From Faecalicatena contorta (GTDB lineage: Bacteria > Bacillota > Clostridia > Lachnospirales > Lachnospiraceae): a stretch of DNA of 64,000 nucleotides. The position numbers and the translations under genes were made by a program. The stretch is from contig NZ_JAFBIY010000004.1 in assembly GCF_021531975.1 (NCBI RefSeq), forward strand, positions 186,001-250,000, written 5' to 3'. Of the stretch, positions 24,575-30,313 are shown in pieces (positions within the stretch are counted from its first letter, which is position 1; every line of letters starts with the position of its first letter). Under the pieces are notes generated by a model. The model saw nothing but the letters and a program-made list of their open reading frames with translations, was not told where the DNA came from and searched no databases.

Positions 24575-25857
24575 CTATCTGTCCGCAAGCTCCTGGATAA
24601 TATCTTCCCAGTCAACTCCTTTTTCAACCATAAGTACCATAGCGTGATACAGAAAATCCGCCATCTCATATTTGATTTCTTCTGGATTCGGATTTTTAGC
24701 AGCAATAACAATCTCTGTCGCCTCTTCTCCGACCTTTTTCAGTATCTTATCAATTCCTTTGTCAAACAGATAATTTGTATAGGAACCTTCCTTTGGATGC
24801 TTTTTTCTGTCCTCAATAGTATTATATACTGTTTCAAAAACACGGAGTGGATTCTTCTCATCATGATCGGCACCTGCAAGTGGCTGGAAAAAGCATGTCG
24901 GATTGCCTGTATGGCAGGCTGCACCTATCTGCTCAACCTTGGCAAGAAGTGTATCACAGTCACAGTCTATAGTCAGCGACTTCACATACTGGAAATGTCC
25001 GCTTGTCTCACCTTTTACCCAAAGTGTATTTCTGCTTCTGCTAAAATAGGTCATCTTGCCTGTTTTAATTGTCTGATTAAATGCCTCTTCATTCATATAT
25101 GCAAGCATCAGCACTTCCTGCGTCTTATAATGCTGTACAATAACCGGGATCAATCCCTGTTCATTTGTCTTGAACTGTGAGAATTCCATCATACTTTCAA
25201 AGGATGTCATGGAAATGCCTTCCTTACTGCATTTTTCTTTAAATTTCACAAAATCCATATCGGTCTGACTCACATATTTTCCAGAAAGTCCCTTTACACC
25301 CGGAGAATGCAAAATCTTAAATAATTCCGGTTCTTCCATTGTATCTGTCAGCACGATACAGCGAATATCCGTCACATTCATGACAGAATTCAGATCCAGT
25401 CTGTGCATAAATACAATCTCGCTGCAATACTCCCGTATCAGATGCTGGTGCTTGAAAAGAGCATCAAAATCATTTAATGATACTGCAATCTTCTCCTTTC
25501 CGAAACGCTGTGCCGCATCCTCAATAAGCTTCGTACTGTCCGGCTTTGAGAAATTGACCATTGCTCTTTTTGCTCCGGAATACAGAATCTTCTTGATATC
25601 TTCCTGACGCTTGATATTACCTCCCGCAACCATCGGAATACGGATTACCCGGTTAATCCTTCTCATCAGATCAATGGCTTCTTCATGCTCTTCATCCGAA
25701 TCTGACAGATCCAGTACCAGGAGCTCATCCGCGCCATGATCACTGTAATATTTTGCCAGACCAATAACATCTTCACTGATAACGGTTCGATCATTGAACC
25801 ATTTTACTGCTTTGCCCCCATCAATAAAAATACAGGGGATAATCTCTTATAACTCAT
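24575..25857 (-). CDS. hisI: HisIE (PRA-CH/PRA-PH) with degenerate HisA/HisF-like N-terminal domain; apparent 5' frameshift
   Basis: From ATG 25666 a frame of 363 residues is open. Its C-terminal two-thirds hold HisI (zinc motif DCDCDTLL and [10 protein letters not shown]) and HisE ([26 protein letters not shown]); they cyclise phosphoribosyl-AMP and hydrolyse phosphoribosyl-ATP. The frame continues upstream without a start codon to about 25846 and encodes [16 protein letters not shown], then a HisA/HisF-like barrel. AAAGGAG and ATG 25857 lie in the other frame: ATG opens only 17 codons. A single missing base near 25844-25848 would join the two into a ~427-residue protein. The barrel has Phe where HisF has its catalytic Asp. 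Whether the frameshift is real cannot be decided here. Confidence 0.8.
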
Positions 25858-25870
25858 TTTTATTTCTCCT

Positions 25871-26458
25871 TTACAGGCTTCCTTTCGTCGTCCATGCCTC
25901 GCTGATACGCGGCTCACTCATAGTTGCCATGTCCAGTGCCTTGCCAAAACTCTTAAATAATGCTTCTGCCATATGATGATTATTAACACCATCCAGAATT
26001 TTCAGATGAATATTCATCATAGCACCATATGATACAGCATAAAAGAATTCCTTTATCATTTCTGTATCCATATTACCAATTTTTTCTGTTGTAAAAACAG
26101 CATCATAATTCAGGTACGGTCTGCCGGAAAGATCTACTGCACAAAGCGCCAGTGTCTCATCCATCGGCAGGATCATGTGACCATACCTGCGGATTCCTGC
26201 CTTATTACCGACTGCTTCGGCAATGACCTGACCAAGGACAATACCGGTATCTTCTATCGTATGATGACAATCCACATCCAGATCACCTCTGACCTGCACA
26301 GTCAGATCAAAAAGTCCATGCCTTGCCATACCGTCCAGCATATGGTCAAAAAATCCGATACCGGTATGGATATCATTTTTTCCAGTACCATCCAGATTTA
26401 GAGTAACTGTAATATCTGTTTCCTTTGTTGTTCTTCTTCGACTTGCAATTCTTTCCAT
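25871..26458 (-). CDS. hisB: Imidazoleglycerol-phosphate dehydratase
   Basis: A 195-residue monofunctional HisB. Metal-binding motifs are GIGFFDHMLDGMARHG, DLDVDCHHTIEDTGI, SYGAMMNIHLKILDGVNNHH. It makes imidazole-acetol phosphate. ATG 26458 has AAGGAGG upstream; a 16-residue longer frame would run into hisD. It is followed 13 nt later by hisIE. Confidence 0.96.
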   Translation of the reverse strand: MERIASRRRTTKETDITVTLNLDGTGKNDIHTGIGFFDHMLDGMARHGLFDLTVQVRGDLDVDCHHTIEDTGIVLGQVIAEAVGNKAGIRRYGHMILPMDETLALCAVDLSGRPYLNYDAVFTTEKIGNMDTEMIKEFFYAVSYGAMMNIHLKILDGVNNHHMAEALFKSFGKALDMATMSEPRISEAWTTKGSL

Positions 26459-26468
26459 AACTGCCTCC

Positions 26469-27764
26469 TTATCTGTCCTCAAAACGAACCTTGATTGAGT
26501 TTGCATGGGCAGTCAGATGTTCCGCCTCGGCAAATGCTTCAATATCAAAATGAACAGCTTCAAGCGCTTCTTTTGAATAAGCGATCACACTTGATTTTTT
26601 AATAAAGTCATCGACGGACAGCGGCGAGAAGAATCGTGCCGTTCCATTTGTCGGAAGAACATGATTCGGTCCTGCAAAATAGTCTCCAAGCGGCTCACTT
26701 GCATACTCGCCGATGAAGATTGCTCCGGCATTTCGTATCTTTGTCATCACTTCATATGGATTTGCCGTCTGTATCTCCAGATGTTCGGATGCGATCTCAT
26801 TAGCTGTTGCAATTGCTTCATCCATATTATCTGCAACTAATATATATCCATAATTATCCAGTGATTTCTGAATGATCTCACCCCTTGATAACTGGGCGAC
26901 AAATGCATCCACTTCTTCGGATACCTGATGGGCAAGCTTTTCGCTTGTGGTTACAAGTATGGCGGATGCCAGTTCATCATGTTCCGCCTGAGACAGAAGA
27001 TCTGCAGCCACATAGCGTGGATTTGCTGTCTCATCTGCAATCACGAGGATTTCACTTGGTCCGGCAATCGCGTCAATGCTAACATATCCGTATACAGCCT
27101 TTTTGGCAAGCGCAACGTAAATATTTCCCGGACCAACGATCTTATCCACCTTAGGAATACTCTCTGTTCCGTAAGCCAGTGCACCGATTGCCTGTGCACC
27201 GCCAACTTTATAAATGGCATCTGCACCTGCCTCATTTGCGGCGACAAGCGTTGTTGGGGTTACCTTGCCATCTTTTCCCGGAGGCGTTACCATAATGATT
27301 TCCTCTACACCTGCCACCTTAGCCGGCAGAATATTCATCAGTACAGAAGATGGGTACGCAGCCTTTCCTCCGGGAACGTAAACACCCACTCTCTGTAAAG
27401 GCGTCACCTTTTGACCAAGCATCGTTCCATCCGGCTTGCTGTCGAACCAGCTGTACTGCTTCTGTTTTTCATGATATGTACGGATATTTTCCAGCGCTTT
27501 CCGGATAATTTCAACCAGCTTCGGATCTACCAGACCATAAGCCTCTTCTATTTCCTCTTTCGTAACCCGGATATTGGCAGCCGATATCTCTGCCTTATCA
27601 AAACGCTTTGTATAATCAAATAATGCCTCATCCTTTTTCTCCTTTACCGCCGCAAGTATCTCGGCAACACCCTGCTCATACTCTCCGTAATGATTCGGAC
27701 TCCTTTTAAGCAGGTCCTCCAACAGATTCTGTCTTGTACTTTCGTCTAATTTCTGTATTCTCAT
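26469..27764 (-). CDS. hisD: Histidinol dehydrogenase
   Basis: A 431-residue HisD with the signature VDKIVGPGNIYVALAKK, the zinc and substrate residues in AGPSEILVIAD and LLSQAEHDELASAIL, and the C-terminal FAGPNHVLPTNGTARFFSP. It oxidises histidinol to histidine in two NAD-dependent steps. ATG 27764 lies 8 nt after AGGAG; a GTG at 27773 overlaps that site. Confidence 0.96.
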   Translation of the reverse strand: MRIQKLDESTRQNLLEDLLKRSPNHYGEYEQGVAEILAAVKEKKDEALFDYTKRFDKAEISAANIRVTKEEIEEAYGLVDPKLVEIIRKALENIRTYHEKQKQYSWFDSKPDGTMLGQKVTPLQRVGVYVPGGKAAYPSSVLMNILPAKVAGVEEIIMVTPPGKDGKVTPTTLVAANEAGADAIYKVGGAQAIGALAYGTESIPKVDKIVGPGNIYVALAKKAVYGYVSIDAIAGPSEILVIADETANPRYVAADLLSQAEHDELASAILVTTSEKLAHQVSEEVDAFVAQLSRGEIIQKSLDNYGYILVADNMDEAIATANEIASEHLEIQTANPYEVMTKIRNAGAIFIGEYASEPLGDYFAGPNHVLPTNGTARFFSPLSVDDFIKKSSVIAYSKEALEAVHFDIEAFAEAEHLTAHANSIKVRFEDR

Positions 27765-27775
27765 GTTTATCACTC

Positions 27776-28411
27776 CTAAATCTGCATTCTAAGCTTCATA
27801 AGCAGGCTCTTAATTCGTTCACTTTCCATACGCATACTCACCGGATTCACGATCATACGTGCTGAAAGCGGGCACACCTCTTCCAGCACTTCAAGTCCGT
27901 TCTCCTTAAGAGTAGAACCTGTTTCCACAATATCGACGATCACTTCAGAAAGACCGACGATCGGCGCAAGTTCAATGGAACCATTTAATTTGATGATCTC
28001 CACGGTCTGATGCTTCGTATTATAAAAATAATCCTTTGCAATGTTCGGATACTTTGTAGCGACCCTGATGAGCTCATGATGCTTTAATAAGGAAGCGGAA
28101 CTCTTGTAACCACATACGCACATACGGCACTTTCCATAGCCAAGATCCAGTACCTCATGCACCTTTCGGCCTTCTTCCAGTATCGTATCTTTTCCAACCA
28201 CTCCAATGTCAGCCGCACCATACTCAACATAAGTCGGTACATCCGGGCCCTTGGCAAGGAAAAACCTGAGTTTCAGCTCTTCATTTACGAATATCAGTTT
28301 ACGGGAATCCTTGTCTTTCATCTCCTCACAGGTAATCCCGATCTTTTCTAAAAGCTCCAGTGTCTGTTTGGCAAGACGCCCTTTGGCAAGGGCAAATGTA
28401 AGGTATCTCAT
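27776..28411 (-). CDS. hisG: ATP phosphoribosyltransferase, short form
   Basis: A 211-residue short HisG, lacking the C-terminal regulatory domain, as expected because hisZ lies directly upstream. It includes LTFALAKGRLAKQTLELLE, the YGAADIGVVGKD element and the PRPP loop region DIVETGSTLKENGL. It joins ATP and PRPP in the first step of histidine synthesis; activity and feedback inhibition need HisZ. Confidence 0.96.
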   Translation of the reverse strand: MRYLTFALAKGRLAKQTLELLEKIGITCEEMKDKDSRKLIFVNEELKLRFFLAKGPDVPTYVEYGAADIGVVGKDTILEEGRKVHEVLDLGYGKCRMCVCGYKSSASLLKHHELIRVATKYPNIAKDYFYNTKHQTVEIIKLNGSIELAPIVGLSEVIVDIVETGSTLKENGLEVLEEVCPLSARMIVNPVSMRMESERIKSLLMKLRMQI

Positions 28412-28431: not shown

Positions 28432-29673
28432 CTATTTATTAATAACCTTCTGTTCACCGGTCACAAGATTGATCATAATAATATCTCCGTTCTTCTTAAT
28501 ATAGATCAGACTACCTGCATAATATTCTTTTCCATATTGTACATATTCCTCCAGCGGTCGGTCCTTTGCCTTCTTCACAAGCTCCGTATTCTTCGCTTTA
28601 TGTCGGAAATCCTTTGCAAGCGTAACGGCTTCTCTTGTCATTCCCTCATCATACAGAATAATGGTATTCTTCCTCGTATAAACGATCCTGATCTTCTGAC
28701 GGATCAGCGCATTCATAAGCTCATCGATCACAATGGCAAAACCGATGGACGGAGAACGTTTTCCAAATTTTTCAAGCAGGTGATCATAACGTCCACCCTT
28801 TACGATGGCATCTCCGGTGCCAAATGTGTATCCACGGAAAATGATCCCCGTATAATAATCATAATTACCAGTCATGCTCAGGTCAAAGGTTACAAATTTC
28901 TCCACACCATAAAGCTTCAGTATATTATATATCTTCTCCAGACGCTTGATTGCCATGATACCGCCGGAATTTGGTGCAATATTCTTCGCTTTGGAAAGAA
29001 TCTCAACACCGCCCACAAGCTCTCCGAGTACACCGAAAGCCTCCATCGAGCTTCTCTTGACTTTAATATTATCCAGATATTCCTCAACACCATAATAATT
29101 ACGATTATTAATAAGCTCTATCACTCTCTCCTGCGCATCTTCATCCAGTGAAGCGTCTTCGATCAGGCTGCGGAAAAATGCAAGGTTTCCTACATTCAAC
29201 TGAAACTCTTTTAATCCAATAGACAAAAGTGATTCAATGACCATAGCCAGCATTTCTGCATCTGCCTCCACGGAATCATCACCAATAAGTTCGGCACCCA
29301 GCTGCGTGACTTCCCGCAAACGTCCCTGATAACTGGAATGATTGATAAATGTATTTCCGGTATAGCAAAGACGGATCGGCAGTTCTTCTTCTCCAAAAAG
29401 AGTTGCAGCTGCTCTGGCGACCGACGGCGTTATATCCGGTCTGAGTACAAGCGTATTCCCTTCTTTATCAAAAAATTTATATAAATCCTTAGACGGAATC
29501 GTTCCTATTTCTTTTCGAAAAACATCAAAATATTCAAATGTAGGTGTCTGGATATCATGATACCCGTATAGGTGAAGTGTCTTAACCAGACGACTCTCCA
29601 ATGCCAGTTTCTTTCCACACTCTACGTTATATATGTCTCTGACTCCCTCGGGAGTATGCAGTAATTTCTTCAT
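28432..29673 (-). CDS. hisZ: ATP phosphoribosyltransferase regulatory subunit HisZ
   Basis: A 413-residue histidyl-tRNA-synthetase paralogue. It has motif 1-like PEGVRDI, motif 2-like VLRPDITPSVAR and CYTGNTFINHSSYQGRLRE, and the FDLSMTGNYDYYTGIIFRGY segment. The length and the pairing with short HisG point to HisZ and not to a true synthetase. It is the first gene of the histidine group, under the promoter at 29747-29775. Confidence 0.93.
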   Translation of the reverse strand: MKKLLHTPEGVRDIYNVECGKKLALESRLVKTLHLYGYHDIQTPTFEYFDVFRKEIGTIPSKDLYKFFDKEGNTLVLRPDITPSVARAAATLFGEEELPIRLCYTGNTFINHSSYQGRLREVTQLGAELIGDDSVEADAEMLAMVIESLLSIGLKEFQLNVGNLAFFRSLIEDASLDEDAQERVIELINNRNYYGVEEYLDNIKVKRSSMEAFGVLGELVGGVEILSKAKNIAPNSGGIMAIKRLEKIYNILKLYGVEKFVTFDLSMTGNYDYYTGIIFRGYTFGTGDAIVKGGRYDHLLEKFGKRSPSIGFAIVIDELMNALIRQKIRIVYTRKNTIILYDEGMTREAVTLAKDFRHKAKNTELVKKAKDRPLEEYVQYGKEYYAGSLIYIKKNGDIIMINLVTGEQKVINK

Positions 29674-29746: not shown

Positions 29747-29775
29747 ATTATACGAATTTTCTCATTTTTTGTCAA
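29747..29775 (-). promoter_or_regulatory. Consensus promoter of the histidine operon
   Basis: On the minus strand TTGACA (29770-29775) and TATAAT (29747-29752) are perfect hexamers with 17-nt spacing. The -35 box lies in the last codons of recU. The leader is only about 70 nt and holds no full T-box or long attenuator. Confidence 0.85.
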
Positions 29776-30313
29776 GCTCTTCGTCTCGTTCTGCCAGATC
29801 ACGGTTCAATGTTTCCAGATAAGGAACATAATACCCTCTTTTAAGCTCCAGAAAATAAGCCGGGTCAAGCTCGTCATAACGTATACTTTTCCTGCCGCCA
29901 TCCTGCCCTCTTTTCCAGAAAGAAAGAAGCTCCTGAAAGCGCATGTAATACAATACATTTCTCTCGGAATAGTATATCAACAGAAATGAAATCCCATCCT
30001 GCTTTTCAAAATCACCCATGAACTTTACCTGATGCTCATGTACATTCTGAAGAGGAAATGTATCTGCGACACATTCTTTTGCATCAAAGCAAACAGGAAT
30101 GCCCTGTACGGCGCCAATATAATCGACGGTACTTCGTTTATCAAAATAGGCAAGTGTAATATGCCTGTTCTCTTTATCCATCTTAACCGGTGTGATTGGT
30201 GTGGGTATCTTCTGGATTAGCGCCAGCCCTTTCTCCAGATAATATTCATTTGTCCGGTTGATCATTTCTTCTAATGTAGAACCTCTAAGGCCTCTTGAAT
30301 TCCATGTTCCCAT
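29762..30313 (-). CDS. recU: Holliday junction resolvase RecU
   Basis: A 183-residue RecU. Nuclease residues are visible in STVDYIGAVQGIPVCFDAKE, with the earlier NSRGLRGSTLEEMINRTN helix and later HQVKFMGDFEKQDGISFLLI. It cleaves four-way junctions during recombination and chromosome segregation. In Bacillus recU lies next to ponA; here it overlaps a pseudouridine synthase gene by 43 nt and precedes the histidine operon. Its last codons carry the his promoter -35 box. Confidence 0.92.
   Translation of the reverse strand: MGTWNSRGLRGSTLEEMINRTNEYYLEKGLALIQKIPTPITPVKMDKENRHITLAYFDKRSTVDYIGAVQGIPVCFDAKECVADTFPLQNVHEHQVKFMGDFEKQDGISFLLIYYSERNVLYYMRFQELLSFWKRGQDGGRKSIRYDELDPAYFLELKRGYYVPYLETLNRDLAERDEELDKK

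Follow-up and report, generated by a model that had tools for sequence, protein, structure and literature searches.

What purpose does a barrel related to HisF serve in front of HisIE once its catalytic residues are gone? The question was raised by a gene in a stretch of 64,000 nucleotides of Faecalicatena contorta (the window; contig NZ_JAFBIY010000004.1, positions 186,001 to 250,000), in which the HisI and HisE domains are preceded by a degenerate barrel of the HisA/HisF type. A preliminary description had proposed that this barrel probably lost catalysis and may act as a scaffold or as a substrate-handling or allosteric part.

Organization of the locus

The gene lies on the minus strand, a correction to the preliminary description of a HisIE-barrel fusion at 24575–25857, which was confirmed in part. 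The open frame, P0001 (window:24578-25846:-), encodes 423 amino acids and has HisI and HisE behind a HisA/HisF-type domain, as proposed. Three Pfam domains score above their cut-offs: PF00977, with 85.4 bits over residues 1–127, and PF01502 and PF01503, with the scores given in Table 1. The HisIE model NF002747 is also matched above its cut-off (275.6 bits; cut-off 187). The motifs SRSR, KGETSG, DCDCD and ACHTG, which we take to be the active-site and metal motifs of HisI, are all present. The order on the minus strand is hisZ-hisG-hisD-hisB-[barrel-HisIE], with the fusion as the last gene; the four neighbors were named from their own sequences, without a profile search.

Table 1. Features of the barrel-HisIE locus (positions in the window)
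Feature	Position	Strand	Basis or remark
HisF-like (β/α)8 pseudo-barrel (predicted fold), P0001 residues 1–217	25196..25846	-	PF00977, AlphaFold2 model, HisF Z 25.3
Codon of Phe7 in P0001, aligned with the first HisF catalytic Asp	25826..25828	-	alignment with 11 HisF
Codon of Asn125 in P0001, aligned with the second HisF catalytic Asp	25472..25474	-	alignment with HisF
Linker and HisI domain (phosphoribosyl-AMP cyclohydrolase), residues 218–325	24872..25195	-	PF01502 121.4 bits
HisE domain (phosphoribosyl-ATP diphosphatase), residues 333–423	24578..24850	-	PF01503 83.2 bits, TIGR03188 111.7 bits
Stop codon of the barrel-HisIE frame	24575..24577	-	
ATG start with Shine-Dalgarno-like AAAGGAG upstream, into a 17-residue dead end	25804..25857	-	
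First in-frame ATG of the barrel-HisIE frame	25666	-	product from there lacks β1-α1-β2
hisB neighbor	25871..26506	-	own sequence
hisD neighbor	26469..27773	-	own sequence
hisG neighbor	27776..28411	-	own sequence
hisZ neighbor	28432..29673	-	own sequence

The genes hisA and hisF, said to be missing from this cluster, are indeed absent from it, and the genome carries both at other places. With 253 amino acids and a score of 390.1 bits (cut-off 294.55), the true hisF adjoins hisH on contig C33, and a hisA of the eukaryote type (326.5 bits; cut-off 229.3) lies on C27. Of 120 Lachnospiraceae genera, 84 have this type of HisA (TIGR02129; L002:1489-2253) above the cut-off, compared to 0 of 14 control genomes.

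The 427-residue product of the preliminary description does not exist as an open frame in the window. The ATG at 25857 has a good ribosome site and opens a dead end of 18 codons, giving 17 residues and then a stop. An in-frame TAA (25847–25849) stands ahead of the barrel frame, which offers no ATG, GTG or TTG until 25666, inside the barrel; an intact start and reading frame are thus lacking for the HisIE fusion in this assembly. Judged against relatives, the cause is a one-base frameshift near codon 6. The normal frame is present from the start in 80 of 80 relatives (with a GTG start in L108 and a contig end that cuts L056). The gene is therefore normally intact, and 427 amino acids is the commonest length among these relatives. 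We regard an assembly or sequencing error as somewhat likelier than a true mutation. In addition to the frame of the relatives, an error is favored by the invariant columns, none of which is changed in the window gene (0/17 in the barrel, 0/28 in HisI and 0/38 in HisE; 0/83 in total), and by the fact that hisZ, hisG, hisD, hisB, hisH, hisF and hisA are all open in the same genome. However, the completeness of the assembly (99.98%, in 34 contigs) argues for a true mutation; the genus-level sample for this species consists of this genome alone. Apart from the frameshift, the gene shows no sign of decay. The stretch A-TTT-TTA before the stop in the dead-end frame (window 25804-25857) is a candidate weak ribosomal slippage site toward the barrel frame.

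Origin and fold of the barrel

Structure prediction and alignment with HisA and HisF, both suggested in the preliminary description, gave a predicted (β/α)8 barrel whose best match by Z is HisF. In an AlphaFold2 model built with 64 sequences (pLDDT 87.6, pTM 0.57), the barrel comprises eight strands and eight helices. In a structure comparison, this model matched HisF 1h5y with a Z of 25.3 (2.1 Å over 212 residues), and the best HisA row reached 22.5. Scored with a profile of 25 diverse barrels (A1), HisF-LUCA reached 106 bits, compared to 57.7 for the best HisA. The homology of the barrel to HisF is not a matter of chance, as the HisF-LUCA score and the structure match show. In a tree of the N-terminal half, 18 barrels formed one clade (100/98) beside 11 HisF (96/89) and apart from 10 HisA (100/99). 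Collectively, these results group the barrel with HisF rather than with HisA. The barrel clade has a long stem and branches off outside the HisF sampled, which makes its place relative to the HisF lineages unsure. An origin from HisA finds no support in the profile scores or in the tree; the barrel scores 55.1 bits with the HisA model TIGR00007 (cut-off 228.95) and falls outside the HisA clade.

Compared to HisF (PDB 4evz, 1h5y and 1thf), which it resembles in predicted fold, in the sequence of the N-terminal half and as a sister clade in the sampled tree, the barrel differs in several respects. First, it scores 79.1 bits with the HisF model TIGR00735, far below the cut-off of 294.55. Second, it lacks the catalytic Asp pair and the C-terminal phosphate motifs. 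Third, it is about 30–35 residues shorter than the HisF of the same genome, is fused to HisIE and does not have hisH as its genomic partner.

In three loci (L137-L139), the order is hisA-[barrel-HisIE], and the barrel takes the place of hisF in the order hisA-hisF-hisIE of L121 and L123. This synteny is consistent with an old hisF-type gene that was fused to hisIE. The barrel would then be an old HisF-side paralogue, apparently of a single origin, fused ahead of HisIE; it would have kept the fold and lost cyclase catalysis, with the true hisH-hisF pair continuing elsewhere.

Loss of HisF catalysis

The motifs quoted in the preliminary description are present in the window gene, and Phe and Asn do stand at the places of the first and second HisF Asp, presumably Asp11 and Asp130 in Thermotoga HisF numbering. 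The close set of relatives comprised 78 rows, leaving out L056, which is cut by a contig end, and L108 (394 aa). At the first position, all 78 of these barrels have Phe, Tyr or Leu, and Asp occurs there in 1 of the 25 diverse barrels of A1. At the second, Asp is absent in 74 of 78 close barrels and present in the other 4, as it is in 6 of the 25 diverse ones. The motifs DGT[KR] and SGGxG, which we take to be the C-terminal phosphate and substrate motifs of HisF, were found in 0 of 103 barrels (78 close and 25 diverse), compared to 11 of 11 HisF. These observations support the proposal that the barrel is without HisF catalysis and is probably non-catalytic.

The diverse barrels have diverged widely, and the identity of the window barrel to 21 of the 24 other rows of A1 is 21–41%. 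Seven columns are invariant in all 25: D40, E82, K85, Y89, G91, F115 and G116. Except for D40, they lie in or just after α3 (E82, K85, Y89 and G91) or at the end of α4 (F115 and G116), and the catalytic and phosphate-site positions that were checked are not among them. Such a pattern suggests packing or docking rather than catalysis. Positions 5, 46 and 99, which we take to be the ammonia-gate positions of HisF, are R/K, E and R/K in 65, 72 and 72 of the 78 close barrels and in 14, 12 and 13 of the 25 diverse barrels, respectively.

Distribution in Lachnospiraceae and beyond

The fused barrel, treated at first as a local case, is family-wide in Lachnospiraceae. The survey covered 120 genera of this family, represented by genomes at least 95% complete, and a HisI match was found in 115 (above the cut-off in 114). 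A barrel-sized N-terminal extension, by frame length, is present in 95 of the 115, counted after two HisA-HisI fusions (G008 and G017) and one Faecalimonas genome (G130, described below) had been set aside. At least 94 of the 95 have a match to the barrel profile among the matches listed, where G082 does not appear. A true HisF above the cut-off occurs in 93 of the 95 (the exceptions are G061 and G145) and the eukaryote-type HisA in 71. By frame length, 17 of the 115 genera have HisI or HisIE without a barrel. A scan of the collection with the α3 motif gave at least 596 stretches, 590 of which were confirmed, and the 80 relatives kept from it include Dorea, Coprococcus, Mediterraneibacter, Blautia and Roseburia.

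In the class sample outside Lachnospiraceae, HisI frames are mostly 110–290 amino acids long among the matches listed. Seven are longer: one HisF-HisIE (L140), three HisF-HisI (L141, L145 and L146), one HisA-HisI (L142), one HisA-HisIE (L144) and L143, in which no barrel fusion was found on reading. The six fusions keep the catalytic motifs of their barrel. HisA-HisI fusions with intact HisA catalytic motifs were also observed in two Lachnospiraceae genera (L126:1095-2195 and L127:999-2144). All of these share the domain order of the window protein; they differ from it in having kept the Asp pair, and to judge by their sequences they appear active. The tree places the pseudo-barrels outside them and gives no support for descent from the sampled active HisF-HisIE fusions.

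Reduced forms of the pseudo-barrel exist as well. Part of its C-terminal half has been lost in L032, L033, L149-L151 and the Faecalimonas congeners L168 and L169, and one genome of another family of the order carries a shortened barrel (L033/L129). In a reversal of the usual loss, L147 is a barrel-HisI protein of 325 amino acids without HisE. A short HisI frame of 113–173 amino acids, too short for a fused HisE or barrel, was noted in G014, G026, G065, G076, G092, G120 and other genera. Apparent intact HisF-HisIE fusions on long frames in G005, G037, G040, G059 and G046 proved to be separate open reading frames in the DNA. G140, a fragmented assembly, has HisF and HisA and gave no HisI match.

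Selection on the barrel

Pooled over 13 independent pairs, the barrel gave a dN/dS of 0.081, compared to 0.041 in HisI and 0.032 in HisE; dS ranged from 0.05 to 1.6, and the many values above 1 make the estimates rough there. The highest barrel value in any pair was 0.273. In the three closest pairs, pooled, the two halves of the barrel gave 0.013 and 0.021, HisI 0.020 and HisE 0.007. These values show that the barrel is under purifying selection, with a constraint about twice as loose as that on HisI over all 13 pairs.

Retention of the barrel after pathway loss in Faecalimonas

Among 10 Faecalimonas genomes, a HisF match is absent in two, G130 and G359, and the other eight have the match together with the HisI motifs. 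G359 and Faecalimonas umbilicata DSM 103426 (L068) have the same barrel-HisIE protein, identical at all 427 aligned positions. A search with six joined his proteins, which covered 4 of the 10 genomes, found no hisZ, hisG, hisD, hisB, hisH or hisF in G130; apart from the barrel, the only match there was distant, 21% identical to the HisZ part and probably HisRS. The same search in G359 did not find hisG, hisD, hisB, hisH or hisF and returned only hisZ, the barrel and a distant match to the HisZ part, whereas all six genes were found in the controls G000, G358 and G351. The gene hisG is the usual partner of hisZ; in F. umbilicata an open hisZ (L068:4699-5952) lies directly before barrel-HisIE, and hisG was not found in G359. 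In G130, the barrel-HisIE gene is open over 417 amino acids, has a ribosome-site-like stretch and lies directly behind what is, by sequence, a homologue of the window gene at 29762-30313. In both species, the fused gene has remained open in its original location and has a ribosome site.

The domains of these two proteins have fared differently. The HisI motifs are lost in both, and in G130 the barrel retains a full score of 297.5 bits compared to 24.4 bits for HisI. Counted on columns invariant in 83 reference rows, with L068 excluded, G130 has changes in 1 of 17 barrel, 22 of 37 HisI and 4 of 39 HisE columns (barrel versus HisI, p 0.00024), and F. umbilicata in 0 of 17, 9 of 37 and 1 of 39 (p 0.044). 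Relative rates agree with these counts, with the caution that the comparisons are not independent of each other. For F. umbilicata and L162 with L040 as outgroup, unique changes stood at 21:23 (barrel), 21:4 (HisI) and 10:1 (HisE); in 12 comparisons of this kind, its barrel was significantly faster in none and slower in 7, and HisI and HisE were significantly faster in 9 and 4. For G130 and G358 with L162 as outgroup, the counts were 30:14, 37:8 and 21:3, and G130 was significantly faster (p<0.05) with 2 of 6 outgroups in the barrel and with 6 of 6 in both HisI and HisE. The G130 barrel is thus mildly accelerated, and some relaxation is possible there. The same fold elements appear in a model built for F. 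umbilicata (pLDDT 86.7), although the aligned relatives are what drives it.

The tree groups G130 with a histidine-complete species (95/93), which is against a single loss shared by the two species without the pathway, but an AU test does not reject a grouping of G130 with F. umbilicata (p 0.245). Independent losses are therefore favored, not proven.

A HisI site destroyed beside a nearly untouched barrel hints that the barrel serves something other than histidine synthesis. In that case, the fused protein would be non-catalytic or active in HisE only, with the barrel as its essential part. We hold this bolder reading tentatively, at well under even chances: it is based on G130 and F. umbilicata, of which only the latter is a named isolate, and the losses in these two species may not be independent. 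Four other genera without HisI and HisF matches (G019, G077, G087 and G124) have no barrel match either, which counts against an outside role.

Possible roles of the barrel

On balance, the barrel is probably kept as a non-catalytic assembly or docking module. It would fold with HisIE and present a docking face, either for the assembly of HisIE itself or for a partner protein, and the chemistry would be left to HisI and HisE. We infer such a service to HisIE from the fusion and from the conservation of the barrel, and that conservation could also come from folding alone. Two observations are against the module reading. First, the pTM of the model is 0.57 and no interface was observed. Second, the partial losses of the C-terminal half and the 17 of 115 genera without a barrel indicate that the chemistry of HisIE does not need the barrel everywhere.

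Could the barrel instead be an allosteric sensor, its N-terminal half binding a phosphoribosyl intermediate and tuning HisIE? This appears unlikely to us. The position of Asn103, in the N-terminal phosphate site, is conserved in 78 of 78 close barrels and could serve ligand binding in that clade, and the positions of Gly81 and Asp51 are kept in all 78 close barrels and in 19 and 18 of the 25 diverse ones. However, Gly82 has become Asn in 76 of 78 close barrels, Asn103 is kept in 12 of the 25 diverse barrels, none of the 103 barrels has the C-terminal phosphate motifs, and half-barrel forms exist. Of the role first proposed, the non-catalytic part stands; substrate handling and allostery fare less well, as the checked catalytic and phosphate positions are not invariant and the C-terminal half is cut in some lineages.

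It is less likely still that the barrel is a passive relic, an accidental fusion that was tolerated with nothing selecting against it. The loss of catalysis, the long-term drift to 21–41% identity and the loss of part of the barrel in several lineages would all fit such a history. A passive relic is difficult to reconcile with a pooled dN/dS of 0.081 that never exceeds 0.273, with a barrel-sized frame in 95 of 115 genera and with a barrel that is the least changed domain in the two species without the pathway. An active barrel enzyme, be it HisF, HisA or one with a new reaction, whose catalytic residues have moved would agree with the full barrel fold predicted and with selection, but it is highly improbable given the lost Asp pair, the C-terminal motifs missing from every barrel, and the true HisF and eukaryote-type HisA present in 93 and 71 of the 95 barrel genera.

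Comparison with known systems and significance

Compared to HisIE (NF002747; PDB 6j2l; plant HISN2 7bgm), the window protein is alike in its C-terminal 200 residues (TM 0.74 with 6j2l by target length) and differs by the extra N-terminal barrel of 217 residues. PDX1.2, which we take to be a barrel paralogue, is similar in being a catalytically dead paralogue beside an active enzyme, and it differs in being a separate protein of another pathway; the comparison is one of kind only. It is described as a plant pseudoenzyme of vitamin B6 synthesis in the accessible portion of PMC6829848.

The fungal HIS4 protein also has an N-terminal region on HisIE. The accessible portion of PMC1963479, which treats the HIS4, HIS7 and hisIE fusions, describes this region of 160–220 amino acids before HisIE-HisD as unexplained and proposes a structural role for it. 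An identity of the HIS4 N-terminus with the same degenerate barrel found no support in sequence: an approximate yeast query scored 1.9 bits against A1, below the best of 2000 shuffles (9.5 bits), and no fungal HIS4 chain was among the structure matches listed (60 of 121 matched PDB sequences).

In the portions of other articles that were accessible, 'hisF-hisI-hisE' is named among fused genes in one background sentence, without detail (PMC9413887), and extra hisH2-hisF2 copies are reported without a barrel-HisIE fusion (PMC8305728). No description of this domain was found in the accessible portions of the open literature, including PMC1963479, PMC9413887, PMC10138114, PMC9026213 and PMC8305728; subscription papers fall mostly outside this coverage, which makes it weak evidence of absence.

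Since the HisIE model scores above its cut-off, such proteins are likely filed simply as 'HisIE' across a dominant gut family, although a dead copy of another enzyme of the pathway makes up half of the chain. Active HisF-HisIE fusions, full pseudo-barrels, half-barrels and barrels kept after the loss of the pathway form a natural series, which allows one to ask what purpose a barrel retains without catalysis. In the species that lack the pathway, this can be tested directly: why is the gene kept if histidine is not made?
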